This document shows positions 1-44,662 of a stretch of 64,000 bases of DNA, piece after piece. How positions within the stretch are numbered: position 1 is the stretch's first letter; each line of letters starts with the position of its first letter. The translations under genes and the position numbers were made by a program. The stretch is from Branchiostoma floridae. Lineage: Eukaryota; Chordata; Leptocardii; Amphioxiformes; Branchiostomatidae. The stretch lies in contig NC_049992.1 in assembly GCF_000003815.2 (NCBI RefSeq), positions 12,158,826-12,222,825 of the forward strand. The letters run 5' to 3'. Below the pieces are notes generated by a model that searched no databases, had not been told where the DNA came from, and worked only from the letters and a program-made list of their open reading frames with translations.

Positions 1-3000
1 ATACAAGAGGAGAGTATCACTGCTTCAACTGAACTCACACATGATATGAGGGCTTCTAAAGCAAGGCTCAACACACAAATGGATGCCAATGGCGCTGGAT
101 CATGGGCGAGTGGACAAACAGACGGAAATCAATGGCTACAGGTAGGGTACATGAGACGATCCTAATGGTATACATTTAGTGTACATAGTATATAGTGTAT
201 ACTCCAAATAGTGTAAAAATTTGCAACTGTCTGATTATATTGGGAATCAGATAAGAGATTGTCAAGGATGATATAGGACATGGTAATGCACCCTCATTTC
301 AGGAGGTGTAGAAGAAGGAAGATTATTTTCTGAACTTCATGGAATCGGCACAGGATACTAGTAGTTGGGAGATAAGACCATTAAACAACAACTTGTGCAG
401 ACTTTTCTGAACTTAGAATGTAACGTTACACTTGATGCTATGAAGATTGCAATTAGCAAATGCAACATGGACCTCAAATAATGCACACAAAAATGTAGTT
501 CTTTCTATCATCTCTAGTGAGTGCTTACAAGGGTATATTTACTGGGTGGTGTTCCATGATATGAACAACATTTAGTACTAATTACAACTTTCCTGTCATG
601 ATTTCTGAGGCCCTAAGCTTTCAACTTATCTCACCTCACATATTATGTCATACATAATATCATCCTTCATCAAACTCTACCTAGATGTAAACTCAATGTA
701 ACTGGCACATGGTAAGCCAAGAAGGACCATCTCCGATGCCAAGTGAATATGTCATACATGATATCATCCTTTATCAAACTCTACCTAGATGTAAACTCAA
801 TGTATAATCAATGTTATGAAAGACTATGTAATACTTGTAGGATTGGACTACATATTACATACTTGCTTAGTTGATAGATCATTAGATTAGAAATTTCAAG
901 CAAATCTTGACTTACTAAAAGCTTGCATGCTGATGCTCCGACTATGTAATACTTGTAGGATTGGACTACATATTACATACTTNNNNNNNNNNNNNNNNNN
1001 NNNNNNNNNNNNNNNNNNNNNNNNNNNNNNNNNNNNNNNNNNNNNNNNNNNNNNNNNNNNNNNNNNNNNNNNNNNNNNNNNNNNNNNNNNNNNNNNNNNN
1101 NNNNNNNNNNNNNNNNNNNNNNNNNNNNNNNNNNNNNNNNNNNNNNNNNNNNNNNNNNNNNNNNNNNNNNNNNNNNNNNNNNNNNNNNNNNNNNNNNNNN
1201 NNNNNNNNNNNNNNNNNNNNNNNNNNNNNNNNNNNAATGATGGCACGGGCAGTATTTTTGTCAGTCACACTTTTCCTCACTTCACTCACTTCAAAATTTG
1301 AGCATCTAGCTTTGGTTAGGGCTGTCTCTCGGATAGGAATCGTGAAATGGAGGTCCCGTGTTTGAGGAGAGCCACACTTTGAGCATGTTAAAGAACCCAC
1401 CACACTTATCGAAAAAAAGCAGGTTTCAGTGGTTAAATCCTACAATCCTATGGTTGCTCCTGGGGCAGTTACTGAGGTCACCTGAGTGCGGCCGAATGTC
1501 AGCTTGCTTCAGACACTTGTGACAGTCATATTGAGGTCACCTGAGTTGTGCAAAATGGCAGCTCCCCTCATACACTTGCAATATAACCCCACCTATTGTA
1601 AGCTCCTTGCAACTCAGCCCCTGGCTGCTAAAAGAGAGTAGTCGGCCCACTCAATAACATAATAACAACAGCATAACAGTCATATCACTTGTTGACAGGT
1701 TGACTTGGGCAGGATGCGCACCATCGCAGGTGTCATCACGCAGGGGCGGAATGGTGTTGCACAATGGGTCACCTCATACAAGCTGCAACATGGTGTCTAT
1801 GAGAATCATCTCACTACAATTGTAGATCTGTCTAATGGCTTAGACAAGGTAATTCGAGTTTAATGAATTCTACAATAAAAATCATCAAGTAAGGATTAAT
1901 GCAAGTAGAATTTTTATTGTAGCCTGACAAGCAACACTCATACTCACTAGATAGAAGCAATACAAGTCATGAGCCATATTAAGGTCTCAGATTTGCTGAC
2001 TGTATTTTATGTAATATTTTAGGTAAATTCTTTTCAATGTTCAATTTGTAGATTTTTCCGGCAAACGATGACAGTGGTACCAAGGTAACAAACGTCCTGG
2101 ATGAAATGATTACAACCCGGTATGTGCGCTTCCGACCGCTTACATGGCATGGCTGGATAGCTATGAGGGTGGAAATCCTTGGCTGTCGGGGTGAGTACAA
2201 ATGTCTGTGTATGATCACTAGCTGTAGTGTATTTACATATTCAGCAGAGCAAAAAATACAACCATGATGTTGAGAATGGGCTAGCATTGTGGGGGTACAA
2301 AATTATGAAGAAATACAGTGGATGAGATATGAATGACTGATAATTTGCAGGATAAAATATCAGTAACACAACACAACACAAAATAGATAAATAGAACACA
2401 ACACAATGTACCACAAATTATGTTGCTTTAGATTGGAAATGAAAAAATGAAGATTAGAATTCTTACCACTTTCTACATTTCACAGTTTATTCTTTGTATG
2501 ATTGTTGTAATATCCTCGCAATTCAGGCTGCCTGGAGGAATATTATGTCTATTGATGAATAAACCAGTCTACAATTTCAGATGAAACACCAGACCCCCGA
2601 TGCCCACCGGAGTACAAGCGATTCCGCTCAGTTTGCTACCAGGCTGTTGATACCCAGCTGAGCTTTGATGAGGCAGAGAGACATTGTGTGGACAATGGAG
2701 CTGTCCTTGCCATGCCACATGACACTGAGACTGTTCAATTCTTGATTAGGTAAACTGAACTCCATGTTTTGTGATTTAGAAACTTGCAGTCAAAATCCTG
2801 CCTCTGGTTTATTTGTCCATTTGAACTTTGTTATTTACTGAAAACAGATTTAACAGATACATGTGCATGACTGATCATTTATGTGATACCTGTAGTTTAG
2901 TCATGAAAGAAACTACATGTACATGATTACTCCAAGTAGGCAATTGTAACAGAATTACATTAGAGGACCTTAATAAGTAATGGTCTAATATTGAACATAT

Positions 3001-6000
3001 TTCTAACTTTTACAATTTTCGTCATTTCCACAGCCTGAAAAATTCCGTGAATCCTAACTCATTGTTCTGGATTGGGCTGAGTGACCGTTTAGAACCGGGA
3101 GTTTTTAAGTGGAATGATGGTAATAGGTTACAACCCAGTGAAACTAACTGGCATCCAGGAGAACCTTCCATCACTTGGAGTGGTGAAAACTGTGTACTTT
3201 ACTTGTCGAATACTTCTTCCAATCTATGGGTTGACCAACATTGTACAACACAGCTTGCCAGTTACATCTGTGAAGTACCTGGTACGTACATCTAAATGTC
3301 CTTATACCCCCCTCACATTAGGCGCGATTCGATCAGACGACGAGTCTGCGAGCTCTAAATTACGAGGAGGCATGACCCTGACGGGGGAGCTCTGCCATTT
3401 CTTTGTCGGCATCAGGGTCATGCCTCCTTGTAAATTAGAGCTCGCAGACTCGTTGTCCGATCGAATCGCGCCTAATGTGAGGGGGGTATAAACAGTGATT
3501 TTAGTTTGATAATCATCTTCTAAATTAAACAATATCTTCCCCTGCTCTACATGAAATATTTGACATTGCCCTTAATGTCAGAGATAAAGTTACAGGTAAA
3601 TTTTTCACTTTGCTGTCAGCCACTGATTTTCATCAGACAAATGTTATGCAAAAGAATATAAGACAACTGTCTAACATTGCATTACTTTAAAAAAAAATTT
3701 CATCCATGAACTTAAAGCACTAAAACACCTCCTTTCCCCTTCAAGTACAAATTAAGTCCTAGTTGTACAAAGTTAACTTAATTTCTAGTTAGTAATACCC
3801 ATTTCTTCACAAAATCCTCCTTTTGTCCACAGCACACTGTCCGTTTATAACTGTAAGTGGTCTGGCTGGTGACAGTGCCAGCAGAATGGGGACTTACATG
3901 CTTACCAACATGGTCGCAGCCGATCGCCCAGTCTACAAACACTTGACACATGATCAGTACATTTATGCCACTTATGACTCTAACCGCCCCCGTCCCGCGT
4001 CATGGTACATTGGACAAGACGTTGGTGCTTTTCGTGGTAAGACACAACATACATTTTTTTGTAATCCTACCATTTTGCTAGCCTGTGTGGGTGCCATCTG
4101 ATTTCTACCAGGGCTCATTGTACTTGCTGCCCTAAAAAAGGGCAGAGAGTGCAAGGAGTCCGGTAGAAATCGGATATTTATTAATTAGCTACATTATGTA
4201 TATATTTAGCTTGAATAATGTTTAACAGGACATTGTCTTACTTACTATAGAATTGTCGTAAACCAAATAAGATAGAATATTCCTTGATTTTTTGTGAGAT
4301 ATTAAAGGAGCTAAGTAACATTGCAATATTTCTATAAAACAAAATGGTCATGGTAATTACATTTCACATGTAGATATTAATAATTGGTGTTATACTTGTG
4401 TTCTCTGAATGATGGACTCTAGCATTTAGTAAAAATCTTAAGATGGTGGCTTATAGTGCTTGCTTCTCTTACCTGCACACACATAATAAAGGGAAATTTC
4501 TTCCAAGACGCAACTCATCCTATTATCATTTGCACAAAACGGTGCCTAGATGCATTACCACCCAATGCTCTGTAAACTCATGAAATAAGTGCTTAAGTTC
4601 ATACTTAAACAGTTTGAAGTGAAAGTATTAGCATTGTATCACAGATTACCTTTCTGTTGTGCAATTCTATTATTCACTTCAAACTGTTTCAGTATGACAC
4701 TTATGAAGTTACATGGCATGATCTGACATTCTAGGAGCTGGACTTCCTTCAGCAGCTGCAGTCAAATTTGAAATCTAGACAATCATTAGGAAGTATATTG
4801 AATTATACTTTTCAGGCTGTCCGTTAGATTACACCCACACCCAAGGAAGATGTTGGCAGATCCACAGGGAGGCAGTGACCTACTCCACAGCATTAGCAAC
4901 CTGTGCTGCCGAGGGTGGTGTCCTCATGATGCCAACAAATTCTGAGCTGAATGGAGCACTAGAAACTCTAGTTAGGGATGAACGTGAAAGCTATTGGATT
5001 GGGTTGACGGATCCAGGGGATGGTGGGCGGTGGACTTGGACGGATGGTTCTGTGTTGGGAGATAGGGATTGTAATAAGTGGAGGTACAGTTGGTAACATC
5101 TATTATCATAATACCGGTACGTTTACGACGATTTCTCTAGCCATACTGATTTGACAAATTGTCAACGCATCATTTTCTCCAGTTACATGTTGTTGTTATA
5201 GGTTACCCTTGCCACTTCTTCTGTGTAACTTTTCTGCCACTCTTGTCCTGCTAAAAGCGTAATATTGTAATTGTAACACGCCGCGGAATTACACGGCGAA
5301 CGGGCGCGTGGTTGGGAGGGGGTACAAAATACCGGTAGGAAGAAACACGGCACAATTAACTGCCGCTATGTACATTTATACATCCTCTGATGTTCCTTCC
5401 TTTTCTGTCAGTAAATGCATAAAACATAAACCTGCATGAGCATACAAAATGTCATGAGAAAATGGACGTATACTGTCAAGAATTTTCATTTAACTTCTGT
5501 CCGTCACAACCGCTATGACGTAACACTTCACTGCTAGCGTAGATATAAAAATGGCGGGAAAATGGCTGCGTACGTTCAATTTTGCCCATTCAGTCGTAGA
5601 TCCGGGCTATTATGCAACGGTTCTTCACACTTTTACATGAGTTGTAGGTCACCAACAGAAATTCAAGATTGTTGTTGAATCATGTTCGTCTTGTGCCGTG
5701 AGCATGTGTAATTATGATCTATATAAATTTGGCAATGAATGTGACAGTGTGTTCGTCCCACGACGAGCTGCCTACCCCGAAATTAAAAAAAAAGTATACT
5801 GAAAACTTTTGGCCTTGTTGTCTTCGAATGCATTGTTATCGATGCTTTGTAAATGGTGTATTGGACACCTAGATGTCTGAAGTGTGCACAGCTCAGAAAT
5901 AACTATTGTTGCATGTGTAGATCTCTTTAAGTTCCAGTATTTTTAATCTACCGGTATAAGTCTTACTACCGGTATTATGCCAATGCATGTTACAGAGATA

Positions 6001-9000
6001 CGAGCCTGCAGTCTGGAAAGGGGGAGAACTACTGTGCTGCCATGATGTACGATTCGAGGCATTTAAACTGGCATGTCACAAGCTGTGAGAACACATTCAG
6101 GTTCATCTGTCAAATCAGTAAGTCACTCAATTTAAATGCAATTTTTTTTAACTGCTCATCATCAAGAGATATTGCCATTTTCTAAGTGTTGTGTGAAACA
6201 AGCTGAGCATGGATCATTCTACAGAAGAAAACAATTCATGAGAGTTCTCTTGCATTACATTGTAAATGAGCACCCAAAAATCTGAGTACTGTCACAGTGA
6301 CCATACATAGACATGTATTATTTGAGTTTATCTTAAATGAGTTACTTTTATCGAAGAAGGTTTGTAAGGTTTTATTATCAAATATTTCAATCAAACATAA
6401 AATTTTAGAAGTACAAACATCAGTTAGATTACTCAAATCACTAATCTTAGCTAATAAATTTTCCACAATACATTAACACAGTGAACACTACTTGTTGCAC
6501 ATGTACATTCTGCCAATGATATACATTGTATTGATCTTATAATTATTGTGCCATGTTTTGATCATGCTTGGATTTTGTGCAGGTACCCTTTATACAGGTG
6601 GAACAAGTGCCCACCCTGCCAAGAAAGTGTTTTGGTTCAGAAAAGTTGACTCTACCTGGACAATAATGCCTCAGCTTCAAGTTGACTGCCTTGGTATGGT
6701 TATTAGAATTTCACCTCACTATTTGACCAAGTGTTAAAGTAAACATGGTTTGATAGACATGCAATGTGATCTCTCATTATTCTGTTGGGTACCACATTTA
6801 GTGGAAATCGTGGCCTTTTCAAGAACGTCTGACTCTACGATACCTGACATATGCACTCCTCAAGGATCTTGCTGCATTGGTATATCTCTTTAGATAGACC
6901 ACAGTTTAAAATGCGACAGTCTGGTAACGACAGTCCTATGGGCCTGGCAGAATTATGGGAGTTGACATAATATAGGTAGATTTTTTTCCAAGTGATATTT
7001 CCAAAACTATTTGATATGTATTTTATGCCATTTTGAACTTGCATTTGTATCAAAGTTAGTGGTCATGTTTCAAAAGGTGCTTCATTACAACTTAAGCGTT
7101 AGCTGCACAATACCTCTGGGATCTTAACAATATTTGTGGCCTTTTCAATGCTTTTCATCAAGGGTTTCTTCTATGACATTTGATTTTATTTCTATCATTA
7201 CACTTTGATAGCAAACAAAATACAAGAACTTCAGTTTTGATGTGTCCCTAGCAAAGTAGATTTTAAATCACTTCATTCGTAAAATGTACAATTTTTGCTA
7301 AATATGTTTTGTATTAGCATATGATATAAGACTGACAGTTGTTTCATTTTTGCTCAATGTTCAGATGAAAACCCACTAGGCTTGGTGGCAGAGGTGGCAC
7401 CAAACATCACTGTCTCCTCTGTGTGGTCTGATGCAGAGTTCTGTCAACCTCATGAGAGTCAGCTAAACTCTCCCAGTGGCTGNNNNNNNNNNNNNNNNNN
7501 NNNNNNNNNNNNNNNNNNNNNNNNNNNNNNNNNNNNNNNNNNNNNNNNNNNNNNNNNNNNNNNNNNNNNNNNNNNNNNNNNNTCTTCTTATATTTTGGAA
7601 AAGTCTGCACAATAACAGAAAGGATATTAAGCAAATGAGCATGTGTTGTGTGCATGTGAGCATGTGTCAAGTATCAAGTCATGTTGAAGTATAAATGTAT
7701 TACAGGAACCTCCTTGAAATGTCAAATTTCTTAAATGTACAGTACTGAATATAGCAAATGAGTTTGGTGTTTCTCCATGGTTTGGATGGCTCTTTCCCTA
7801 GATACCAAATGAATCTGGCTTGTATGAACACATCTAAGATCAAAGTATATCTACATGTAGCCAGTAACTGAAGTTGGTTATCCATATGCAGAGTAGAGAC
7901 ATCAAAAAAGGTTTGTTCACAAGTGGCTTCATGTGTTTGTACAGGTGAATCTTTGGTCAGAAACAGCCATCAGTGGAGTCATCACCAAAGGCAGAGCGAA
8001 TGGTGCTCCCTATGAACGTGTAACAGCATACAAACTGCAGTATAGCTCTGATGGGACCACCTGGACTACTTGTACTGATGAATATGGTGAAGAAAAGGTA
8101 AAGAATTTTACATTGTCAGAAGTCTTGTGATTGCATTTACTGAGTATCTTTTGAATATCTGTTAAGTTTTTTTGTATGGCTGAGATGAATATCATGGCCA
8201 AAGTTGCTACCTCTGCCCAATATATCACATGGGTTGAGCCCCTAGGCCTTCTTTAGATAACTTTGTCTAGGTCCTCCTGACCTTTGTTGTAGGACAACAC
8301 ACGGTCTTGGGACTCTTGGCACTAACGTTTTCTATCATTTTAGATTTTCACAGATGACACTTCAGTGGAAGCAAATATTGGGGTAACCCAGTATCTTGAG
8401 GTGCCTGTTTTTGCGAGGTACGTCCGCATTTTACCACAGATGTGGAACACCCATATCAGCATGAGAGTGGATGTGCTGGGACTACTTCCTCAAGGTAAGC
8501 TGGATGGAATTTCATGCAGTTTTCTTTAAAAACATGGAAGCTGGGGTAGTAAAGACAATAATCTTTCAGCTATGGGGGGGTATCAGGTAGAATACTGATA
8601 GCAGCATATTGATGTTTCCATTGCAAATCTGAGCCAATATGATGGCTCCCCAGGTCTTCTTGTTTTCCTAATATGAAGGAAACAGGTGCTCAGATCTCAA
8701 GTAACCTCAAAACAAACAATCTGCCTTTTAATCACTTTTTGATCACTCTTTTGATAACAGTAGATTGTTTTTCTCCTTGGTGCTGAAAAGTTTGAGGTGG
8801 GAGCTGTCTGTGATTTTAGTGACATCCTGAGTCTTTCTTTGCATTTGCTTCAGAGACAACCATTCGGAGGTGTGGCAATCAAGCAACAGAGCTTTCCTGC
8901 CCTGAAAATATGGCCTTATCCATTGTGGATGCTAAATATGGTCGTCAAGCTGCAGTCCCAACATGTGGAGGATCAACCAGCAGCACAGATTGTCATGCTG

Positions 9001-12000
9001 CAGACAGCCTGCCTATTCTAAGGGGGATGTGTGAGGGTGAACAGCACTGCACAGTGGCGGCTAATGGTTACACCAACATCTTTGGCGATCCTTGTCCGGG
9101 GACACACAAATATCTCCAAACCACATACCAATGTGTCGAAAGTATGAATTTTTGTATCTTAAAGAGAGGCTCAAGCCAATAATCTTCCAGTAGATGTAAG
9201 ATGATTAATTCATGTTGCACTAAGAATTAATGTCTTACCGGGTAGTGCTAACTTTTTATAGTTTGCCACTAATGAAAGCCATAGAGTGACAGACAAGAAG
9301 TAACAAAGCCTATTCTTTCTTTTTATCATATTTTCTCATGTAGAGTATATGAAATGAAATTATCAGTATTTTTCAAAACCAAAATGTAATTAACTACTTT
9401 TAGGCTTCTGGTTTCCCAGCATGCTGTACTTACCATTTTGCAACATTATGATTCATTGTGACTGCAAATAAACAATAAACAAGATTCCACCTGGGAGTGT
9501 TGATATGTATGCATGAACTTCACTGAATGAGCCTATAGCATGATTTTGCAAAGGAGATTAGACTGCTTATTAAACACATTGATTTTCAAGGTCCTTTTGC
9601 ATTACCAATGGCAGGTTGGAGTGAATGGTCAGTCTGGTCGGACTGTACCGTCTACTGCGGCAGCGTCGGGGAGCAGTCTCGTGTGCGTACATGTGAGAGT
9701 GTGCTGTCGTGTAAGGGGCTGGACTTACAGACACGGGATTGTGGAGACATTCCATGTGCTGGTTTGTGTTGGCATAAGCCACTCCTGTCTATCTTGTTCC
9801 TTACTTAGTCCAAGTCATTGTTATCAATATGTTGATAAAGTTTAGACATCTAGGTAATAAGATATGCCAAATAGTAATTACTCAAGCAATTGGATATGAT
9901 TTTGGATATGGTCAGACATTTCAGATAACATCCATTATCTTTCGTTGTGACACTGACAGTGTCAGTGACAGTGATAGATAATGAATGATATCTAAAATGT
10001 CTGACGGTGTCCAAAATCATATCCAGTTCAGGGCTCAAAATCCATTTTTGGGAGTGCACCCAGCACCCAAAAATTTTTTGGTGCACCACTTAAGTTTAAG
10101 TAATAACCTAATAATAAAACTTAGTTACAAGCTATCAAATTCTTAAATGACAGACATTTTATTATCTTTCCAACACTTAGATGTCAAGAATATGACGTAT
10201 ATTAGTATACTTTGATATCTTTACATACATAAACCTAAGAAAATATTTGGGTGCGCCCTGTGCACCCACAGAAAACAATTGGGTGCACAGCTCTAATTTT
10301 GGGTGCACCTGGGTGCACATGCACCCAGTATTTTGAGCCCTATAGTTGCTTGTAATGAGTAATTACTATTTGCTGTATTTTTATCAGTAGTCTCAGAATG
10401 ACCAAAATGTTAAGTGCTTTCCAAGTTCACACTCTAAAGATGGGTGCAAGACAATTGACTCAGGTCACAAAAACAGGTCAGGTCTTCAAAGACTTATTTC
10501 TGGGTGACTGCCTAATTGTTGGAATGTCTTATTACATGTACTAGATGCTTACATTGACACTGGTCAGCATTGGTGCAAGGAAAATTGACTGCAAGACATT
10601 GCATGGATGCCATTAACCCTCTCTGACTGATCTATGGATATTCCTTACAACAGCAGGTGCCAGTAATTGGAATATGAAGGGTGCATACAGTCATCTTCTA
10701 TTCATAAAGCAGATAATAGATCACAGTTTTCATCATATTAAGCAGACAATATCTGAATCAGTAAGCGTATCATATAATCTGTGGCCAGTCAATTTGCAAG
10801 GAAGGGGTCCCTCCTCTAATTATGAACACCCTGAGATGATGTTGCCTTCAATGTACACTAACTGCTTTTTCTCCAATCTTTGTGATCTTTTTTTTTTCTG
10901 ACAGCATGGAGAGAGTGGAATCCATGGAGTCCGTGTTCCATCACTTGTGGTGATGTTGGCAGGAGGAGCAGAAGCCGATCTTGTCATGGCAAGGGAGGCT
11001 GTGTTGGCAGCTCCAGGGAACATGAGATGTGTAACATGGGGCGTTGTGCAGGTATAAGTCTTTTAAACAATGAAAAATCAACATAGTTTACTGACAAAAT
11101 AAAACTAACAGCTTATCACCACTGGCTTTACTGACTGGGTCTGTACCATTTAAAGGTCATAGAAATTGGCTTAGTAATCTGATTTCTTGTTCCAGTGTGT
11201 GTCATAGTTATTGGGTGACTATTTAGGGCTGGCATTGAGGGCATGTTTTGTACCAGTAGAATACAGTCAAGACATTTTTAATAATAACCTGTATAAACTA
11301 CATGACTGGTAGCAAACAAAGCATCATTTGAAGACAGCATATGCACAGGAAAAAATCATTTTAACTGATAACATATACTAGTCTGTACATTCTATGGTTG
11401 GTAGGGCAGAAAACATATTAAAATAATGTTGTTTGCCATTCATGTGTATTACAGATGCTGTAATGGGTGACTGTGGCTTTGACAAGGAGAACTTGTGTGG
11501 ATACACCCAAGAACGCGGGGATGATGCAGACCTGGTCCGAGAGTACTATAATTCTAACCCATATATCCAAGGCAAGATCTGGAACATTGTTATCTATCTA
11601 TAAGGACAATGTCTAGATACCTATTTCTTACTTTGTTGTTAAACCATCTGGGTGCGTTATGTATTTAACAACTGTTTTTGCCACCTTACAGGATATGTTG
11701 TATACCCCCCTGCACCTGATGTCATGGTCCGACTCACGTCACCTTTAGTGTCGTACCACACATCAAGGTGTCTTAAGTTTGAGTATCGCAGAAGGCATGG
11801 TTACCACCAATTTGCAGATACTTGTAGTGTGACAGTTTACATAAGGTGAGATGATAAGGTCTTTATTGGAGATTGTTTTACCTATATTTAGGCTAGGTTT
11901 TCTTCCAGCTTCTTTATGTGAAGTCATACTTCAATTTCTTATCTGTTGTCTTGAGATTTCAAACGTCTTGAATAGTAACTTGTACTTGATAAACTTTCTC

Positions 12001-15000
12001 AGCCAGGTCAATGCTGGGGTAAACTGCATGGAGCATTCTGTAGTCCATTAACTTTACGTTATCTGGATTAATATGCTGTTACTGTAGAATAAAGCCTTTA
12101 TGCCATTCAATAACACAATAAAATTTTTCGAAGAGCGGTTTAATAAATCCTTTTTTGTGGCAGATTTGATGGAAGTATAGATCACCAGTATGCTCTGTGG
12201 AAGTCATCTCCTGTCATACCAGCAGACAAGTGGTCCACGGCATCTGTTGATATCTGTGCATTGAAACACTTTGTGGTAAGCAAGACTAGTTTTGTGAAGG
12301 AAAAATGTGAAAGGATAATAGATATAGCGCTAGTTCACCTTTATCCGCGGGTTGACCTTTATCCGTTGTCTTTAAAAACAGCACATTTATGAGTATTAGG
12401 TCTACAAACTGTGGTTTCAAATTTGCAATATTTTCAAAATGTTCAAATTTGAAACCACCATCTGTCGACTTCATATCCTTAAAAACGCTTTTTTTACAAA
12501 CAACAGATATAGATCACTCTTGGATAAAGGTGAACTAGCGTTACATTCGAGTGTTGAAATTGAGGATTTAAAAGCACATTATACATCTTATGTTTTGCTA
12601 AGCCTTTGTCAGAACCCTGATAAGTCAAGGAATGATAAAAATGCTATGAACTGTGTTGACTATGTACACATGTACTTGTACAATGTAGTTGTACTTGTCT
12701 AAACTATGTAAGTAGCTGTTGTACAATGTAGTTGTAATTGTCTAAGCTATGTAAGTAGCTGTATACTGTATTCAAATTGTTTTATGTAGCATCACAGCAT
12801 GTGCTTATAATAGTTCGTTATTTTTTTTGTTATTTCCCATGTCTAGGTTATGTTTGAAATATTTGGAAATGTCATGTTGGACAATATCAAGTTCTCCAGC
12901 AGCAAATGCAGTGGTGAGTAATAATAACAACTATGCTCATATCATGATAGATGTTACTTGTATCCTGTCCTCTTGATAACATTGTAATGTGTATGCATTT
13001 CTCATGGATACCATTGCATCTATTGGATATGCATGCTGTTGTGAGCAAGATATACAAATCTTACTCTGAAGTTCATGATTAACCTTGTGGGAAGGTATAT
13101 CAGACATTAAGATAGCTTTAAAGTTGAGTCAAGTGTGGGGAATTTTCAGTAAATGGAATAGTTATGTGATATTGATGGACAAATAGACTATGATACAGTT
13201 CAAGGGCATTAGATCTTTGTCAAACAGTACAGTTCTTACTAATGGCATGTGAATTCATCTACCCTTATTTGTATGTCTAAATTTGTATGGAACAGAATTT
13301 GCTTACTGCCTTGAATGTTTAAGCAACAGATAGAGTGTCATTATTTGTAGAAGGCACATGAAATTTATGACAATATCATAAAAATTTTCACAATCTTTAC
13401 TTTTCCATCATTCTCAGGATGTACCACACGAGACTACTCCTTTCCATGTCCAGTTGCTTCTGGCTGGTTTTTGGCCCGAGATGAGATGTGTGCGCCACCT
13501 AGCAGTTATACAGGGGGCTGCAGCACCTCTAACTTACATGCACTCTCAGCTCTGGAGAAGAAGAATTTGGAGGATGTGTGTGGAGTAAGATGGCCATGTG
13601 CAGGTGTGTCTCAGAAAAATGATCCAAAATGTTGAAACATGAAAGACTGCACTGTCAAAATGGTGTGAAAGCTTGCTTTTTGATGTCCAAAGTGCCACTT
13701 GACAAAAGTGTGACAGTAACATTCATTCACATAATTTCACCAGGTGCCATTATACCGCCACTTCAAAAAACGTGGTATTCCAGGCCTTCTCACGATTGTC
13801 TTATAAGATGTTGAGCACCTAAATATCTGAATTGTATTACATTTAGGATATTAACATTCAGTGTTCAAGACGATCTTGGGAAGACCTCTATTTTTTAGGT
13901 GGCGGTATTATAGCACCTGGTAGAATTATGATAGTCGATGTTATATCATCCAAATGAATTTTGTTCCTCCAGTACATTCTAAAATCAGTATTAAAATTGT
14001 GTTAGCATTTTCAGTTTCATCAACTGTTTACCTGAGTTTCTTTTTATAAAAACAACAACACTGAAATTGCATTCTCCATAATAAAGGTCTTCAATACTAA
14101 CTTCTTTTGAGCCTTTTTACAAAAATACATATAGAATTTAATTGTTACCAACTACATTCAAATGATATATGTTTATTTCCCCAATGGCTACTTTGCTGTA
14201 CACTTAACAGCTAATTACTGTAAATGCAGAAATGTTCGCGGTTTTCGCGTCGACCACTTTACCGCGAAATTAAATCCACCGCGAAAATTTTTCTATTAAG
14301 GTATTAGATTGCAGTAGATGGTGTTACCGCGAAATTAAATCCACCGCGAAAAATCATTTTTCCCGCTACCGCGAAATTAAATCCCCGCGAATTTAAATGC
14401 ATTTACAGTATATGTTTTCTGTTCAGTCTAGATTTGAATGATTTTATAAAGCTAATGATCATATAATTTCCAGATCATTGCCATGCATGTGACGGCACAC
14501 AGGACATCACAGAGCCATCTGGGTGTTTGCTGAGCCCAAACTATCCTTACAACTATTTCCAGGTAAATGTACAGAAATTCATTGTGGTACTGAAAGTCAT
14601 ATCAATTGGTAACAAATTTTTGCTATGTATGTTGTGTATATGTGTCCTATAAATTATCACCACATGGGAAAAGCAAATGATCAGGATATACATGTATCAG
14701 GAGTTAAGGGAACCATTAGGCAACAATTTTGTGTTTGGACTTAGAATGTTTTAGAAAATTAGGTAAATCCTCTCTTTTTGGTAGATCTGGAGCAGATCAG
14801 TAACATATTTACTCCTTGAGCTAAATTTGTAGGTTTGTGATATTAAGGGTAAGAATCTGGTTTATATTTTGGTGGCATCCCATTTGTGGTACTGCATATA
14901 CCATTAATGCCTAGCAAAATGCTTCTATAATTGTTTACTTCTAACATGTTGACACCAAACCATATTTTTGTCTCAGAAAAGTCTACAGAACCTTCCACAG

Positions 15001-18000
15001 AAATTGCTTCAAATATGTAATTCTAAACTGTCATTGCAAACAGGAAACACTGTGTGCTTGGAAGATCATTGTTGAGAAGAACAAGATTGTGAGTCTTTCA
15101 GTCACATCCATAACACTGGAGGAACATCCTGACTGCATCAAAGACTCCCTGACCTTTTACGACGGAGAAGGAGATGATGCCCCCGTCTTACGTCGACTGT
15201 GTGGCAGTGCTACTCCCAGGACCTTCTACTCCACAGGAAATACTGTGTTTGTGAAGTTTCAGTCCAACTTCAATCAAGAGTTTGAAGGCTTTGTGGTTAC
15301 TTACTCTACTGGTCAGCCTCATCGTAAGTGAAGCACTACTGCCAGTCATTTTACATATCCATGATATAAATTTTAGTTTCAAGGGGCATCTTGACCCAAT
15401 CCTATCATCACCCTTTGATTGAGATAGACAACAGCAACTTGAGTACCTCTCCTTGGTGCTGAAATGAGAGGTGTTACTTTAAAACTTCCCACAACTACTA
15501 CATGCAGATTGCAGAAAATAATACATCACTGATAAACATACCTTTCTCAATAATAGTAGTTGTATGGTAGTGTAGAATACAGTACATTAGGTTCAGTTGG
15601 GTAGAAGTGTTGATTCCAGTTTGGGCCACTCTTCAATTTAATTTACTGACATCATTGGTCCCTTTGGTTAGACCAATGCTCTCTTTAGATATATTCATGT
15701 GTAAAAATGTAACCAATGGTGTTAACCACCACTTTGCATCCCATACGGAAGCAACAATGGCTTTCTGATTTTTAGATCAACAGGTTAATTTTGTGAATTT
15801 GAAAACATCATTTGTGGGATACATGCCTCACAACATTTTCACAGTTTTGCCAGTCCTATTTACAGCATTCCTTTTTTCTTACAGGATGCTGGGGTAGACT
15901 GGTTGGTGTAAGTTGGATGAATTTAAGAGACCCAATAATCACTGCATCAGACAAATCTAGCCTGCACTTTGGGGAGCACCAATCAGAGGAAAGTTGCCAG
16001 GAAGCCTGTATGCAGGTCAAAAGCTGCTGGGGTTATTCCTTAGAACTGACCAGCAACAACTGCTATGGACTGCTGAATACAGATGACGAAAGGCATTACC
16101 GTTTTGATGCTGAGCAAGACCATGTCATCAGTGGATTCAGACAACCCTGTGATGGTATGGAGACATCCTTGAGCACATGCTCATTGATTTCTATAAATGG
16201 CTCTTCAAGAGCATTTCGTTGTAACGTGCAACACATTTTAGTATGAGAGAACCTTAATGGTCTTTTTTGTCACAAACTTGTTTAATCTTATGTAATGACA
16301 AAAGAATTTCATGTAACATAGCCACTTGTTAAAGAAGGAAGAAAAGGACTATGAAATAAATGATTAGACTGACTGATTACTGCTGCATAGTTCTAAGACA
16401 CCTCTTGAAACAGACAATCCTGTGAGTTTTGCTTGGTATCCAAGATCAATTTTAATTCAGAAAGCAAAGAGAGATCATGCCAAAGTGTCACATTCGAAAA
16501 ATGTCTTTGTTGCGGCTGTTGTCAACTGTCAATATACATGTAGTCAATTTTAATTCAGCCTATTCTGACCTTTTCAGTGCAATATGATAGGCGCATAGAC
16601 AAGAGTGTTGTTTTTGGCCTGGTGCCTGTCGGAGGAAGTGACATCAGGCCAGACACTATCTTCTTGGGAGAATTCCAAAGTGAAGCAGCCTGCGCATATG
16701 CATGTTCATTAGAGGCCTCTTGTTTGGTAAGTTGGTGGTTTTGACTTGGATGTACCAATTATCAACTGAGATGCAAAAACAACATTCAAAGTTTCAAAAT
16801 CAATCCATTCATTGTACATTCATGAATGAATTCAAAAGAAAATATTACAGCTTTTTTTTTTATATCAAGTTTGACCAAAAGTAAATAAAAAAAGGCCCGT
16901 TGTGAAAAAAATGCTAATAGTGATATAGATTGATTTAGGATTATCTAGCTCAAGTTGAATTTTATCAACAATGATTGTTTTATCCCTCTAGCTATAACCA
17001 TTGTATTTGCTTGTTCATCTCATCAGGCATATACATGGATTACTAAAAGCAACATGGAACACATGTTGCAAAAGTGCTATGGGAGGAATGTAGCCAATCC
17101 TGTTTTAGAGCAGACAAGAGGCAAATACTCTGGTATAAAGGTGCAGCAATCAGGTAAGTTTGACTACCTTGACCCACCTACAATTTTGCTCATTTGCCTT
17201 TCATTGATTGCTATCAAAAATGAAAGTTTCTTCTTCTTTACCTTCATCTTTTTCTGGGGACAGAACACCTAGCAGGAGAGCATGTCTTTTTATCAAGGCT
17301 TCTGGGAAATAAGATGGCTTTGATCATGATAATAGTTTGGTCAGATGGCCATAAAGACCAGACATCCTTTTCTATTTAACAACATCTTATGTCATCCTGA
17401 CCCAGCCATAGGACAGATTGGGACTGAAATTCAGATCCATTAATTAGTTTAAGATTTTTTGTTTACACTTTCTCATCTACATGTAACAGCAGTATGAGAT
17501 ATAGCTTCAGTCAATGTGTTTGATTTGTTTTGTTCAACAGTTTTAACAAAGCCCACAGACCTTGCTGTCCAGACAGTCACACCCAACAAAATCAGCATCT
17601 TATTGGTGACAACTCACGAAGTGCGCATCTCCTGCATCCCTAAGTGCAACAACGTAACAGTGGGTGAGATCAATGGAGTGACTATTGCAACTTTCAATGA
17701 GCTGCAGCAGGCAACAAATTCCACCATATATGTGCGAGCTTTTGAGAGGTTCGTTGAGAGTGAAGCATCGGTAGTGACAGCCACCACCAGTAAGTATTTA
17801 CCGTATTTATACTTTTGATCTTTAGCTAGAAGAAGTGACTATCAATATCTCCTTTTGTTTTATACACATCATACCACAATATACAATTTTCTTTGCTTTC
17901 TAGTGTCTCGTGTAAACAATAATCTTACAAATGTAAGATTTTACATGCATCAGAGAAAATCATTTTCATGATCTATAGGAGACTTAGAATATCATTACCT

Positions 18001-21000
18001 CAAATCTTCAACATTTAACAATACAGATGTTTATATATACTAGAGCCCCTTTAATTCCTTGTAAACTTTAGAGGACATCTCTGATAATTTTTTGTTTGCT
18101 TTATCTTACAGCGTTTGCTGCTCCAAACATTACACTCACAAGGAGTGCTCAAGACACCCTTAACATCAAATGGCAAAGGGAGACTTTTTCATGGGAAGAG
18201 ACTGCCATTTCCATGGAAATTACCTGTCAGCAAAAGAGACATGGACATTTTGAGGTTACTATTGAGATAGATTTACTTATAACTTCCTTTCATCATAAGA
18301 TTTTCTGCAAGTCTAATAATACACCCAATTTTGTGCCGCATCGTCTTTCTACGTCCAAGAAATAATGATCTTCGCAAATTTTGTTATAAAGTCATTGTCG
18401 GTACTTTTCTGGTGTTGCAAAGCCAACTCAACATTAGTGCTGTGAAAAATGAAGTGAATAACAACAGAAAGTACCAATATTTGAGTGGTAAAAGAAAGTA
18501 ATTTAGTGGAATTAATCAACCAAGAATTTGGTGTATGTAATGATGTTTGTGTTACAATATATTAAGATATTTTAAGTGTACCTTGAAATAACACGATCTA
18601 GATAAATGTAGATAATGGAAGACAAAAATCATTGTCATGATTATCTATGGCTTGAATAGGATTGGAAGCAATGTGGAGTACTGCTGGTAAATGATGCTGA
18701 TGGTGAAGTGGCAATGGCCGGGCTGTTTCAAGGAATGGACTACACATTCAGTGTGGAGAGGAGAATTGGAGATACATTAAGAGGAGAGACTGCAGAAGTA
18801 TCATCTTATGTTGGTAAGATCTTTGAGAAAAAATCAATAGAGGAGCTTTTTAGTCCACCATCAATGTAGAAATCAGTTCACTGTCCATAATATTATCTAT
18901 TGTTTAGTATGAGAACTTCACCAACTCCAACTATGGAAATTAAAAAATGTGTATGGTCGAAGTGTATATGTATATGTATATTTGTGCTTTCTTCCTTACA
19001 GGTCTCATTTCACCTACAAGTCTATCAGCACTCACAATTGAACCCCAGACTATCACCATACGTTGGAGTCTGGACAGGGATGAAGGACCTGTCATTCCAA
19101 CAGTGGCAGTTAACTGTGCACCAACTTGTGTGGTAAGTGAATTTATCCTTCAATAAACACATGCTGATATTAGTTTGAAAGCTTGACTCTGTTGGTTGAA
19201 GTCATTTACTGAAATCTCTAACACAAAAGAAATTGGCAATAATTTTACCAAACAGCACCACCAATTGGATATGGATTGAACCAATTTGATCATAGGAACA
19301 CATGTTTCCTTCAAGCTGACAGTCGCTGCTGTTTAACGGTCAAAACGTCTAATTTCTTTGTCTTTAGATTACACATAGAAATATGTCTTCATGAATATAA
19401 CTATACCAGTGTTTTGAATTACTGCGTGCTTCAGGATGTGGAATTGCAATTGAAGGTATGTGTGATTTTGTCCTTTTCTACAACAACAAGGAAGTCATCC
19501 TATTTTGGAAATTCTGTTTCAGGTTCAGCTACTTGATGGGCTATCTGCAGAACTGAGTGGTCTGCAGGCTGGTACCGATTATTTCATCCTTGTCTGGACA
19601 GAGTTCAACGGCCTACAGAGTGATTTAGTAACCCTGACAGTAACAACCTGTAAGTACATATCATTTGGTTCTTTGTACTTATCCTGTCCTTGGTACTGAA
19701 CACCTTCCATGTTGTTCTGCTCTCGGTGCTGAATACCTTAAGCATCATTACATGTCTGTATGCCCTCAGAACTGGATACCTTCCATATTGTTCTGTCCTG
19801 GGTGCTGAACACCTTCCATATTGTTCTGTCCTTGGTGCTTAATACCTTCTATTTTGCTATATCCTCTATGTCGAACACCTTCCATATTGCCCTCTGTGTT
19901 GAATACGTTTCATATTGCCCTGTCCTTGATACTGAATATCTTTCACATTGTGCTGTCCTTAGCGTTAGATATCTTCCATTTTGTCATGAGCTGATTACTT
20001 CCACACTGTTATTCTTGGTGTTGAGTTCCTTCCATATAATCCTGTCCTTGGTGCTGAATATCGTTATGCCCTTCATGTTGGATAACTTCCATATTGGGGC
20101 TGAATACCTCTACACTTTGGGAAAATATAAGAAATGAATAATGAGGGATGGAGGGAGTGTACATGATATTCCTATTGGTGGTGGTAAATACCTTTCATGG
20201 TGGAAGGTCATTGATACTTCATGCCTTCAGAACAACCTTGATCCTGATACAAATTTCCACTGACAGTGATCTGCTGTAAGTGCTGATAATTTTCAATTCA
20301 CATCTTACATCTCACTAGGTACTTTTCATTTTCGACACATGTGATACCTCATTGTACACATCCATAAACAGTTACAATATGAATAATTAATTATTATACT
20401 GGCCAATATTGTATTTATGTAGAATGATTCTTATGGTAAAGATAATATATGAACTTTGCACTTCCAGTGATCCCACCGCTATCAGGTCTGCAGGCACCAG
20501 AACTGTCATCATCCAGTGTAAAACTCACTTGGGACAGCCCAGCTGTACAGCCAGATTTCTACCAGATAACCTATAAGTAAGGCACTATCTAATATCATCC
20601 ACCTGTCTTTGTTTGTGTATGAGATTAGTATAAAGTCATGCTTTCAGGTAAATCCCACAAAACTAGTCAAACTATATGTACGCCCTCAGAGCTTGACACC
20701 TTCTATATTGTTCTATCCTTGGTGCTGAATACAAAAATTACTTACTGTTTATGAAATAGTTCTTGTCATATTCACTTTCTTACACGTCTACACAGCATGC
20801 AAAATCTCATCAGACTGAAGAAAGTAAAGTAATGAAAAGCTGTTTTCCACAGGCAGACCTATGGAGGAGTTGCTAAGAACGAGACTATAGGTGCCAGTGA
20901 AACACAATATGAGCTGAATGGATTTACCAACAAAAATCAACGATACAAATTTGAATTAGCTCCTGTTATCCATGGAAAAAAGGGTGATGTCTTCACACTT

Positions 21001-24000
21001 ACAGTCTGCTTGGGTATGCAAACTTATTTGTCCTTTCAGGTTCAGGTTGTTCATATATGGAAATAGTGTGGTTGAAGATTCTTGCAAATTTAAGGAATAT
21101 AGTATAACATATTTTAATCTACTTTCATAATGCAATGCACCTGATCTTTTTGATAATGGTGGACATGTGTTGTCAGTTTGTGTTAGTTTCATCAAGTCTT
21201 GGTTTTCATAAAGGTATCAATTTTGATCTTATTGGGTTCGAGTTTCTAATTAACATGATTTTTAAGATCAGATACAAACAAGTTGGTTTTGATTGACAGC
21301 TGAAACTGCAAAGCTGAAGGACTTTCAAGTTGGTCATGCCACTGCAACTGAGATTTCTGTCACGTGGACATCACCCGCTTGTATCGACGTCCGCAGCTAT
21401 GACCTTTGTGCCATCCCCTTGGATGAAACAGATGAGGGTACGGTTTGCCGACAGGTTTGTACTATCGACAATACTAACCTGCATCAATCATTTTGAGGAA
21501 TTTCATACTTTAGGACTATAAGTTTTGCATTTATATTAATGTGTAAGAGTAACGGTAATTACTGTGATGATTGATTTGTGCTCCATTTTGTTGGAAGGTT
21601 GATCCAAAAAGCCCCTCTGCAGTCATAGAAGATCTGGTGCCAGGAACCCTGTACTATGTCAACCTTACGGCACAGATTAGCTTTGTGGTTGGTGGAACTC
21701 CAACTGATACTATCAGTGATGCTATATCACAGGCTACAGGTTGGTTTTGTTACATTTCAAAAGAGAGTTATCAACTTATCACTTGTTGGGTCAATACTGA
21801 CTGTCAATATTTCTTTGTATGCTGATCGATAATGAATGATTTGTAATTGAACCTGTCGCAATGATCATTCAAAAATGAGTTGCCTTTTCAAAGGTAACAA
21901 TGATCAATTGTCTTCGATACCTTGGACTGTTACTAAATGCACAAAAAATGTATAATGTAAAGACACACATGTCAAATATTTTACATTCTTCAGTTCCAGA
22001 ACCACCAACAGAATTCCAGGTCACCAACTTCACTAGCAGAACTGTCTCCCTATCCTGGCATCGCCATGGGAACAAGACAAACAGCTTGGACAACCATGGA
22101 AAGAAGACAAACAACTCTTCTGCTGTGTACACTGTCAGCTACTACAAGATTGTTGGGCTGAACGGGACTGAGCCACACAGATTGTCAGTAGGATGGCTTA
22201 GCACAGTTAACACATCAGCAGTGGTGGAAGGTCTTACTGATAATACAGAGTACCTCATAACAGTGATGACATCAGTCAGTGGGATGCACAGTGGAGAAGT
22301 GTCTCTGATAATTCAAACAGGTATAACGTTAATTAGTAACTTATTCCTTTGTGTGCAATTCTTTACATATAGATTATGACATGAAGTTATTTGGTGTTAC
22401 TACCCTAGTAGTATTATCCAGTATTTGATTTATCTGCTTCGTTGGTCCCTAACATGCATGGGTGGGCAGCAGTCGACTAGTCTTCACACCATGCTTCCAG
22501 GCAGCCCTGTCATCTGAGTTCACACTGGCATGGCCGCACACATTGATGTCTTTCTTAACACACTCCTTTCAAGATTTCCTTGGACTATATTACCTCTTTT
22601 GCCAGGTAACTGCAATTTGAGAAAGGACTCACCCTGTTGGCATTGCCAAATAAAAGTTTATTTTATTTGTTTATTCATTTTATCTACATTTATCAATTGA
22701 GCATTATACAAAAAGCACATTAATTTTGCTTACTATATATACGTTAGGTCTTCTGCTCAAGGTAACATAAAACAACAAATAATAGTCAAAATCGGCAAAA
22801 AGAACTTGCTTATTTATACAACACTAACATACATGTATAACAGAGATTGACAATAAAATAAATGTTTGAAAAAAAATGTTTGAAATTTTTCTGTAGCTCC
22901 TGAGGCAGAGTGGAGTGAGTGGCAGTTTGTCGGCAGCTGTTCTAAGTCCTGTGGTGAGGGAAGACAGGTGAAGAGGAGGTTGTGTCTCCTGCAAGATGGA
23001 CAGCATGTACAGAAGTGTGAGGGGAGGAACCAGACTCTGATGGATGTAGAAGAGGATATATCGTCCTGCAATAATATATCTTGTCCAGGTAAGTATACAA
23101 ATCCTTGTCTTCTTGAGGTCATTTTACATGTAGATCAGTCCTACCCAGGGAAAACTTGTCTTCATGTGCATCACTGTAGCATACATATTTTGATGTACTA
23201 GAGTACCAGACTTACAAGTTCTCCAAGGCTCTCAAAGACTTCACAACTGTATGTTACCTGTAGGAAAAATTTCTTTCTATATGGCATGTAAAGGAAAGGA
23301 ACAAGCTTTCAACTTTTAATACACTGTACTTTTAATGACTTCAAGAGCTGCTCCATTTTCAAGATCTTGCAGCCCATCAGGAGGGGAGTTAATTTATTTT
23401 AGATTTCTGTGCCCCTGTGTAACTATGATGATTATATCATGGCCTCACCTCTCCCATCTCAGAGTAGTTAACCCTACTGAATGTTTATGTTCATAGTACA
23501 TGGAGGGTGGTCATCCTGGTCAAACTTCACAAGCTGCTCAGCAACCTGTAATGGAGGCAGCCAGACACGGAGCCGTAACTGTTCCAACCCTATCCCCCGA
23601 CATGGTGGTCGAACCTGTGCAGGGCAACAGTTACAGACTGCTCAGTGCAACCTACAGAGTTGTCCAGGTTTACTCATTTACTAGTATCATTTAGCAAATG
23701 CTACTCATTGTCCACATTCAAAAGAATCATAATTGTCTAATTTATGATTTGAAATGATATCAACCAATAATCTCCAAGCAGATCCTACGGTGCCCTAAGA
23801 TAGTATCAAAGCTGGCCAAGGAGTGTAGCCGACCAAGGGAGTCAAACGGGCACCTACGGAAAGTTTGATACTATACATTACGCACCGTGGATCTGGTTCG
23901 AGATTAATCAACCAAGTGCAGATCAGAACGCAGTGGTCAGTGATTTGATTTAGTTTTCATTTTCTGTTAATCCATCGAACAAAACTTTATTGACAAGCTG

Positions 24001-27000
24001 ATGGCAAAGCACAAAAAGTTTAATTGTATCTTAAGTCAGTGTGTGGCCTTTTCAATCCAGACTAAGATTGTTAGCGTTGACTTATCACAGAAGTTAACAA
24101 TCTTTTTTGCTCTCCCTGAAGTGCCGGTGATATCAGCGTGGATGTCCTGGTCTGCCTTTGACGACTGTTCTGAGACCTGTGGTGGTGGACTACAGATCAG
24201 GAGAAGACAGTGCAATGGTTCATCATGTGTTGGAGAGGCTGAGGAAATAAGAGAGTGTCATGAGGAGCCTTGTCCAGGTTCAGATGTTTGAAAATTTGTT
24301 TTTAGTTGTTAAGGTTGTGTGATATTTGTAACATCAAAGCTCTTTAGTAACATTATGTAATGATAGATATTCTGACTGTGGCGAAAGAGAGAGAAGACTT
24401 AATGAAAAAGAATAATTGACAAGACATTTTTGTGTCTCATATCTAAAACGGTAACATAGGAAATTTTGTGACATCATGCAACAACAGCTTGCAATGTCAT
24501 ACTTTCACAAGTCAGCATAAGTTCCTCTGTTGCTTTGAATTCTCCTTTCGACTGTGGTCAAAATCTTCTTTACAGAACTATGCAGATAAAAAAAAATTAC
24601 TAAATTAATATCACAATGTATGAAACTTTTGAAAACAGTTGACATATTTCTTCCACTCTGCAGCTAATGGTACATGTATTAAGACCAATAAAATTTCTAT
24701 TTTTAAAAGTCCATGGAGGATGGTCCATCTGGAGTCTATTCACTGCCTGCACGGTGACCTGTGGTCCTGGTAACCAGACCAGAACACGCAACTGTACCAA
24801 CCCTGAACCTGCACTGGGAGGCAATAGCTGTCCTGGAGATGATGATGGACATGGACATGAAACACAGATCAGGGATTGCTTTTTGAAAGAGTGCCCTGGT
24901 ATGTTCTTAAAAAATCTTCCCTTATGCAATGTAGATTAAGATAAAGGCTGTGTATTATATACAATGTAGTCTGTCTGGAACTTTGCAGGAATAAGATTTC
25001 ACAAATGATGTGCAAGAATCTATGATCTGTAAGACTGGCTTCGATGTAATGATAATTATAATGCATTGAGTAAAATTGCATGTGAAGATGGTCCAATCTT
25101 ACTTTTCTTATTAGCTTTTGAATTTTGGCAACATATTTCACTAAAAGATGTGGTAGATTTATACCTGTCCAGTACAATGAAAATAGTTTATTTTGACCTT
25201 AATGTATAATACCCAACCTTGTTCTACAGCCTTGCCTCCACCACCTACATGGTCTGAATGGTCTCCATTTGGCCCCTGTTCTGTGAGCTGTGATAATGGC
25301 ACTCGGCAGAGGCATCGAAATTGTTCATCGGAAAACTGTGAGGGACCTGACATAGATGTCCAACAGTGTTTCCCATACCCCTGCTATGCAAGTAGGTTTC
25401 ACAACCCTCTTATTGATTGTCTTGTTGTAACGTCTGTTGTAACAGTACTGTACTTTGCATAATTTCCCCATCACAAATTATATATTATGCATGCATCTTA
25501 ATGTTATTTTGCAATGTGCATTCTCTATAGCCCCTCCCGTAGATGGCATGTGGTCAGCTTGGTCGGAGTACAGTCAGTGTACGGTAACTTGTGGAGGAGG
25601 AGTGATGCAACGTACACGGGAATGTGCGGACCCTTCACCGACACACGGTGGCAGGCCATGTGAGGGAGACAGAGAGGGTCTCGGGATGGAGGTCCAGTAT
25701 CTTGCCTGCAATCTAGCAGCCTGCAACGCATCAAGGCCTCCTCCTGACAATGTTGGAAGTTGGTGTCCTTTTCTTTTACCATAATTACTACTGGAAGGGA
25801 TAATATGTGCATGTAGCTTTAGATATTGGAATACACAGCCTCGGCAGTTGCTAACATGATCTTGGAAATACAACATTATCTTGGAAACAGAATAGCCACA
25901 CTGAACGCTTAGAAAACCTAACAATATTAAGAATACATAAAGTTTTGCTTAGCAGGAAACTTTGAATAGGATTATACTTATAGCCTTCAATTTCATGGGT
26001 AATCTAACTAAAATCCTGTTGTTACGTTGACAGTGTGCCCAACAGTGATAGGAACAAACAATCAGGCCTGGCCAGAAGCTGCTGCTGGGGCCGTACAAAC
26101 AGTCATCTGCTATAGAGGTGGGTTAACTTCATAACTTGATCAACATCCGACTTTCTTTAAATCTACTAAATAACTCCTCTCTTTTTCCTACCCTTCCACA
26201 TGGTCTCAAGCACCCATAGCTCACAGACTCATCCTAGTTCTCAAGGTACAGTAGGGCTAACGGTGAAGAAAACTGTCTTTCAACGTCTTTATTCATGCTC
26301 TATTATATGTATCAATATATAGATAATGTACTTTGTTTATCATCCATGTTTGATAGACTTGTCACACAACTATACACAAGGAAACAGCTAATTAATGACA
26401 TGTTGTGTAGTGGCCATAAGTCATTATAATAAGAGAGCTTAATAATGATGATTGACCACTTCCAGGTGTGGCCAGACGGAAGTGCAGTGAATACTCTCAG
26501 TGGGAGGCAGAGGACTTCCAAGACTGTGTGTCTGAGATCATGGCAGAGTTTGTGGATAAGGTAATACATGTACCAACATATTAGAAAAAGATTTTTAGTG
26601 TGTCCTGTGTGTCCAAATCTTATCCAAGTGTGTCCAAGTGTTATGGAGCCTTGATTTAGTATTCCAAGATAATAATAAGCAACATGACATTAAATGAGAA
26701 ACAAGAGAGAGAAACCTAGTGCAAGAGCATCAGTAAGACAGTATTGGGTTCAAGGGTTCTGTAGAATACATAGCGTACATTGTGTCTTTTTCTGTTTCAG
26801 CTAAATGGACCTCTCCAAGATAATCTAATCCCAGTACAAACAGTCCAAAATTTGGAGGCAAGCCTGGTAGCTGGGGAAGCCTCAGGGTTTGGGGATGTCA
26901 GCGCTGCAGCAAAGGTTATAAAAACACTGTCACAGGGAGACCTTCTCAATGTGGCAGATGGGACGCTTTCAAATAAAGACACGTTCATAAGGGTATGTGA

Positions 27001-43800: not shown

Positions 43801-44662
43801 AATTTGACCACTCTCAGGCAACTAGCGATGGAGCGCCATGAGTTTGAGCGCAAGAAAAAGCGTACCGTGTTGGGGCACCTCCCGTTAGTAGGGAGTCTGT
43901 AGTGTACAGCCAGACGTCTGTGCGCGACACGACGCTCTGAGTGGACTCGTTCTGACTGACATACTTCTGAGCTAAGTCGTCAAAACCACTCAAAACTGTC
44001 CACTGGAATGCTGAGTTTGTTAAAACATCTATAAGGGCATTTGACATTCGCTCTAGAAATGTCATTTTGTCAGTAAAACTTGAGTATGTTGATGGAACAT
44101 AGGACCGAGGAAGGATAGCACCCGTTGCCTTTGCGTCAAGATTAAAACGGTCGAAGCGCAGGATGGCGATGTGGGGAATTTTCAGTCGCGCCGCGATGAA
44201 AGCCCCACAGGGGAACATGGGATCACTCACTAGAACATTATACTGTGATCTTGGTAGAAGACTACTCTTACTAAGCATCAGGTCACAATGTTTGACAGCA
44301 TGTTCAGACTCCAGCATGGATAGCCGAATGACGTGAAAGACGGAGAGTTTTCCAACAGTGGATATGTATTTCCGTCGGACCTCAGTCAGCCTTGCCTGCG
44401 AGTGAAGATCCGGGAATGTCGAGTACCGAAAGTCAGGTCTCTCCGCTTGTCTTGTAGCGACCATGTCCTCCGGTACAATTACCGTGACATGATGCCCTTT
44501 GTTCACTAGCGCTTGCCCTACGGTCGCCATAGCGAACCACCGACTGGCTGAAAACGGCGGTACCACGAAAAGAATCTCCTTCCCGTCGACATGTGAGGCA
44601 TTCAGGAGACCCAACAAAGTTGGTACCGTGACCGCAACACGTACAAACATAGAAAACTCCAT
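40886..44662 (-). CDS. UDP-glucuronosyltransferase family protein
   Basis: Five exons: 43879-44662 (ATG at 44660-44662), 42729-42805, 42322-42541, 41331-41550 and 40886-41168 (TAG). Total 1,584 bases, 527 residues, the standard UGT length. A signal peptide (LLGLLNASHVDG region) is followed by the N-terminal acceptor domain (GHHVTVIVPEDM; NVLVSDPMFPCGAFIAARL), then FPRPTMPNIVHVGGLHV, VIVVSFGSIVKTMP and the sugar-nucleotide signature FVTHTGAHGVYEALYHGVPM ending DQPGNA. A TM helix (LLDVAAFLLVSCSGILWAVW) precedes a cytosolic tail ending HKLKSQ, a KxKxx ER-retrieval motif. The position normally holding the catalytic His (SHW) reads SRW. For exon 1 I chose the GTGCCC donor, because it joins in frame to DFPRPTMPN; the alternative GTACGC donor does not. 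Confidence 0.9.
42246..42303 (+). repeat. Retroposon-like tail with (TTGAC)n
   Basis: In the third UGT intron (41551-42321), the sequence CAATTGTTGTGCAATAAACT runs into about four and a half copies of TTGAC. An AATAAA followed by a short 5-base tandem repeat is what the 3' end of some non-LTR or SINE-type elements looks like. The upstream body of such an element is not recognisable to me. Confidence 0.4.

Follow-up and report, generated by a model that had tools for sequence, protein, structure and literature searches.

The exon at positions 13418-13603 of the DNA stretch analysed here (64,000 nucleotides, "the window") very probably codes for a true CPW-WPC domain, a homologue of the alveolate one. 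It would form a single phase 1-1 module of an adhesion GPCR, most likely that of an animal, whose extracellular region is very long. CPW-WPC has been described as specific to apicomplexans and chromerids, with one additional dinoflagellate protein (PMC11285972, 2024). Homologs in chromerids are likewise reported in PMC4501334, and a further account records the family from throughout the phylum Apicomplexa as well as from Chromera and Vitrella (PMC13223096, 2026); all three papers are cited here from the portions available. A clear copy in an apparent animal receptor would change the known range of the family. A 2016 study by Rao et al. is said to be a source on the range of the domain.

None of the literature matches listed for CPW-WPC (including in combination with metazoa), for adhesion GPCR domains and for lateral transfer into apicomplexans deals with CPW-WPC in an animal, as far as the accessible parts of these papers extend. 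In a survey of choanoflagellate GPCRs (PMC12716839), "CPW" occurs 0 times in the main text. Animal members of the family may exist in the automatic annotation of InterPro.

Sequence and identity of the exon

The exon was delimited by splice sites and phases:

13418-13603, + strand, CPW_WPC domain exon, phase 1-1 (matches to PF09717 and TIGR01492; splice sites and phases)

Its borders are of the GT-AG type (acceptor ...CATTCTCAG/GATG, donor ...TGCAG/GTGTGT, with the slash at the border), and together with the phases they bear out the phase 1-1 exon proposed in the first-pass annotation. Read from 13420, the frame is open and yields 61 residues, among them six cysteines (1, 10, 24, 34, 54 and 60) and two tryptophans (16 and 58). 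Conserved cysteines, six in all, and aromatic residues at six sites define the domain, according to the available text of PMC11285972. Both numbers are found in the exon, the aromatics being Y6, F8, W16, F17, Y30 and W58, in a count that stands apart from a residue-by-residue fit to the conserved columns of the model. The residues initially reported for D-Y-S-x-x-C-P, for CPxxxxW and for the closing W-P-C are present as described, but the third motif reads C-A-P-x-x-x-Y-x-G-x-C, with three instead of two residues between P and Y, and the supposed Lys-rich stretch amounts merely to ...LEKKNLED.... CPxxW near the start is the expected spacing in CPW-WPC domains. The exon departs from it with CPxxxxW, as already recognised at first reading, yet both curated models accept it.

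PF09717 (CPW_WPC, Pfam-A) matches the exon residues with E=1.4e-15 and 58.3 bits, where the cutoff is 23, spanning model positions 2-58 of 59 and 58 of the 61 residues, and TIGR01492 (CPW_WPC, NCBIfam) matches with E=1.2e-11 and 45.3 bits against a cutoff of 35.6. With both models above their curated cutoffs, the CPW-WPC identity first suggested from the motif alone stands, and the profile search against PF09717 named as its check, for which the lack of a significant HMM match had been part of the contrary outcome, returned a significant match. Among Pfam-A families, CPW_WPC alone matches the exon at E up to 1. The alternative that it encodes one of the common Cys-rich modules of animals was considered and rejected, no such family being found in Pfam-A within this limit. 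A search of the PDB by sequence gave no relatives of the exon up to E=10.

The receptor gene and its surroundings

The receptor gene was spliced by hand into 47 exons, 45 of which were scanned with Pfam in seven segments; several exons outside 11455-15311 were joined with phase gaps at some junctions. The gene appears to start upstream of the window. Besides the CPW_WPC exon, it comprises:

25-2190, + strand, F5/8 type C (discoidin) exons (splicing, Pfam)
2581-6117, + strand, exons of two C-type lectin domains (splicing, Pfam)
7365-8494, + strand, second F5/8 type C domain (Pfam; first exon with a run of N in its open frame)
8854-9141, + strand, SUEL (D-galactoside/L-rhamnose-binding) lectin exon, phase 1-1 (Pfam E=2.3e-19)
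9615-11051, + strand, two TSP1 exons (9615-9761 and 10905-11051), phase 1-1 (splicing, Pfam)
11455-11571, + strand, MAM exon 1 (GC donor AAG/gcaag, inferred from phase)
11692-11845, + strand, MAM exon 2 (splicing, phases, Pfam MAM)
12164-12275, + strand, MAM exon 3 (splicing, phases, Pfam MAM)
12847-12913, + strand, MAM exon 4 (predicted from phase; Pfam MAM)
14474-14562, + strand, CUB exon 1 (phases; CUB E=1.9e-25)
15044-15311, + strand, CUB exon 2 (phases; Pfam CUB)
15885-16154, + strand, PAN_1-like exon, phase 1-1 (23.2 bits, cutoff 21.4)
17541-22320, + strand, exons of a fibronectin type III (fn3) region (Pfam; exons 20468-20561 and 20857-21013 outside the scan)
22897-25758, + strand, six TSP1 exons, phase 1-1 (Pfam E=5e-55)
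29763-29905 (start approximate), + strand, GPS motif exon with CxCxHLTxFAVL (GPS E=1.8e-7)
30041-32697, + strand, exons of the seven-transmembrane region (7tm_2 E=2.2e-11; some TM exons not found)

Between 11455 and 15311, seven exons whose phases agree make up a single open frame in the order MAM-CPW_WPC-CUB, so that the CPW_WPC exon stands directly after the end of MAM and before CUB, in line with the first-pass annotation, which had the domain joined to MAM and CUB. Without the exon 12847-12913 the MAM match reached 23.3 bits, below the cutoff of 26.4, and the phases did not fit. This exon is the single phase 0-to-1 candidate between 12276 and 13410 within the score and length limits applied, and with it and a mended end of exon 1 the match rises to 40.1 bits over the whole model. 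A truncated MAM domain, considered in view of the initial score, was rejected once the phase-predicted exon had resolved the deficit. MAM exon 1 is followed at 11571 by a likely GC-AG intron (AAG/gcaag), as judged from phase.

The host gene was correctly named an adhesion GPCR: the GPS motif matches PF01825 (1.8e-7, 32 bits against 22.5), the 7tm_2 match is partial (2.2e-11, 44 bits against 20.6, model positions 7-143 of 250), and the transmembrane part has 19 PDB matches up to E=1, every one of them an adhesion GPCR, with E1, L2 and L3 as the best. The Pfam scan reported GPS and no GAIN model for a receptor in which the exons before GPS are hand-spliced with a phase gap. From its domain make-up the host organism is most likely an animal; GAIN-7TM receptors are also described from choanoflagellates in the available part of PMC12716839.

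CPW_WPC was found in a single copy within the window, as was claimed at first. A phmmer search with the exon against 2160 six-frame ORFs of at least 20 aa found no second copy in the window (next best E=1.5), and the Pfam scan at E up to 0.01 matched CPW_WPC in one of the seven receptor segments, the one with exon 13418-13603. The tandem repeats of secreted CPW-WPC proteins have no counterpart in the window, where one copy was found; they characterise the Plasmodium proteins and not the domain as such.

Three further features were recognised in the window. One of them, the RNase P RNA gene, sits inside the receptor gene in antisense orientation, between its exons 30288-30390 and 31413-31636:

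30680-30982, - strand, nuclear RNase P RNA gene (RF00009, 169.7 bits, full model)
41330-41614 and 43820-44686, - strand, UDP-glucuronosyl/glucosyltransferase exons (UDPGT E=1.2e-26 and 5.5e-31)
61787-61975, + strand, sugar transporter exon (Sugar_tr E=1.1e-13), probably with more of its gene toward the end of the window

Homology, chance resemblance and transfer

Convergence had been offered at first as an alternative to an ancient module, and would mean that an unrelated six-Cys module reached the same spacing of cysteines and tryptophans by chance. Much of the score indeed comes from these residues: with the six cysteines masked, CPW_WPC remains the sole family but falls short of the cutoff of 23, with E=0.0022 and 19.3 bits, the second half of the exon alone (residues 36-61; 1.7e-4, 22.8 bits) lies just below the same cutoff, and masking Cys and Trp together leaves no CPW_WPC match in Pfam. 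The first half alone (residues 1-35) reaches 7.8e-7 and 30.3 bits, however, and each half matches its own part of the profile with the order kept, which makes convergence unlikely. It is likewise contradicted by the shuffled sequences, none of which matched CPW_WPC (0 of 10, of which five were full shuffles and five had every C and W fixed), by the bare C/W/Y/P skeleton of the exon, for which Pfam gave no CPW_WPC match, and by the lack of a competing family at E up to 1. One shuffle had a weak match to zf-MYND (E=0.19). The match is, at the level of profile comparison, more than spacing alone, and we regard convergence as very improbable. The reading of the exon as a true homologue of the alveolate CPW-WPC, and hence as a familiar module in a lineage and a context that are new for it, is well supported by sequence.

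The exon could also be an artefact, either of contamination or misassembly that put alveolate DNA into an animal contig, or in the sense that it is not spliced into the transcript. The 353 N in the window and the fact that the exon is known from genomic sequence alone would be compatible with this, but its splice sites are good at both borders, the reading frame is kept across it from MAM to CUB, and its composition is that of the gene. GC amounts to 0.511 compared to an exon mean of 0.482 (sd 0.043) and GC3 to 0.443 compared to 0.467 (sd 0.082), both less than one standard deviation from the means, which were taken over 41 of the 47 exons (25-141, 7365-7480, 11455-11570, 20468-20561, 29101-29212 and 29763-29905 were left out for their unsure ends). 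We consider an artefact extremely improbable. Phase 1-1 is shared by 14 of the 41 tabulated exons, the CPW_WPC exon included, and in combination with the ordinary composition it fits an exon-shuffled module and counts against recent foreign DNA, but does not date the origin of the exon. The same two properties bear on horizontal transfer, which is compatible with homology and concerns the origin of the domain. An alveolate that lived as a parasite or symbiont of the animal, or served it as food, might have supplied a CPW-WPC sequence that was captured as an exon, or an alveolate ancestor might have taken up an animal domain. Such an exchange would agree with the restriction of the domain to alveolates reported in PMC11285972, with alveolate LAP proteins described as carrying modules known from animals, e.g., LCCL and discoidin-like F5/8C, and with one dinoflagellate protein in which F5/8C and SRCR occur together with two CPW-WPC domains (PMC11285972, as far as available). 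Phase and ordinary composition speak against it, and imply that any transfer was old or well adapted; we treat transfer as a tentative possibility.

Searches of non-animal collections with this one exon, which address close relatives only, confirmed none of 9 pattern matches in viral contigs and none of 151 in prokaryote genome contigs; plasmids gave no match up to E=1, and phages one 33% fragment at 66% coverage (E=0.6), taken as chance. Given homology of the exon to the alveolate domain, we lean towards a view of CPW-WPC as an extracellular module, eukaryote-wide or transferred, that animals employ in receptors. If this holds, the alveolate-only view of the family is wrong, and its origin, either ancient or by transfer between animals and alveolates, becomes a question that can be answered by a tree.

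Possible role and comparison with known systems

The function of the CPW-WPC domain is unknown even in Plasmodium, where it marks a family of mosquito-stage malaria proteins (PMC7487766, available part). An animal adhesion GPCR with this domain, if true, would provide a tractable non-pathogen protein for the study of its fold and binding partner. The six cysteines of the module may form three disulfides. Between MAM and CUB, the extracellular module would then be small and rigid, and would contribute to the binding of a partner or set the spacing of the binding modules. A ligand that binds the lectin-rich and TSP1-rich extracellular part, or a pull exerted on it, could then cause detachment at the GPS, by which the tethered agonist would be exposed and the receptor would signal, following the GPS/tethered-agonist scheme described as established for adhesion GPCRs in the accessible text of PMC12716839. 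The presence of members of the family in the LAP3 interactome of Plasmodium, as given in the available part of PMC7487766, fits a binding role, but is no proof of it.

The exon resembles the CPW-WPC domain (PF09717, TIGR01492, IPR006387) in its length of about 61 residues, its six cysteines, its aromatics and the closing WPC. It differs from the eight CPW-WPC proteins of Plasmodium, described in the available text of PMC3637178 as carrying a signal peptide as well as five repeats of four to six cysteines each, in its single copy in the window, its position within a receptor and its CPxxxxW. The amphioxus adhesion GPCRs of PMC2246102 share discoidin, C-type lectin and CUB modules with the receptor in the window, but unlike in the latter, CPW-WPC is not named among their modules in the accessible portion of that paper. 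The dinoflagellate protein CAJ1387072 of Effrenium voratum, compared here by its description in the available part of PMC11285972, has two CPW-WPC domains and SRCR, with no GPS or seven-transmembrane part mentioned, but like the receptor it combines CPW-WPC and F5/8C in one protein.
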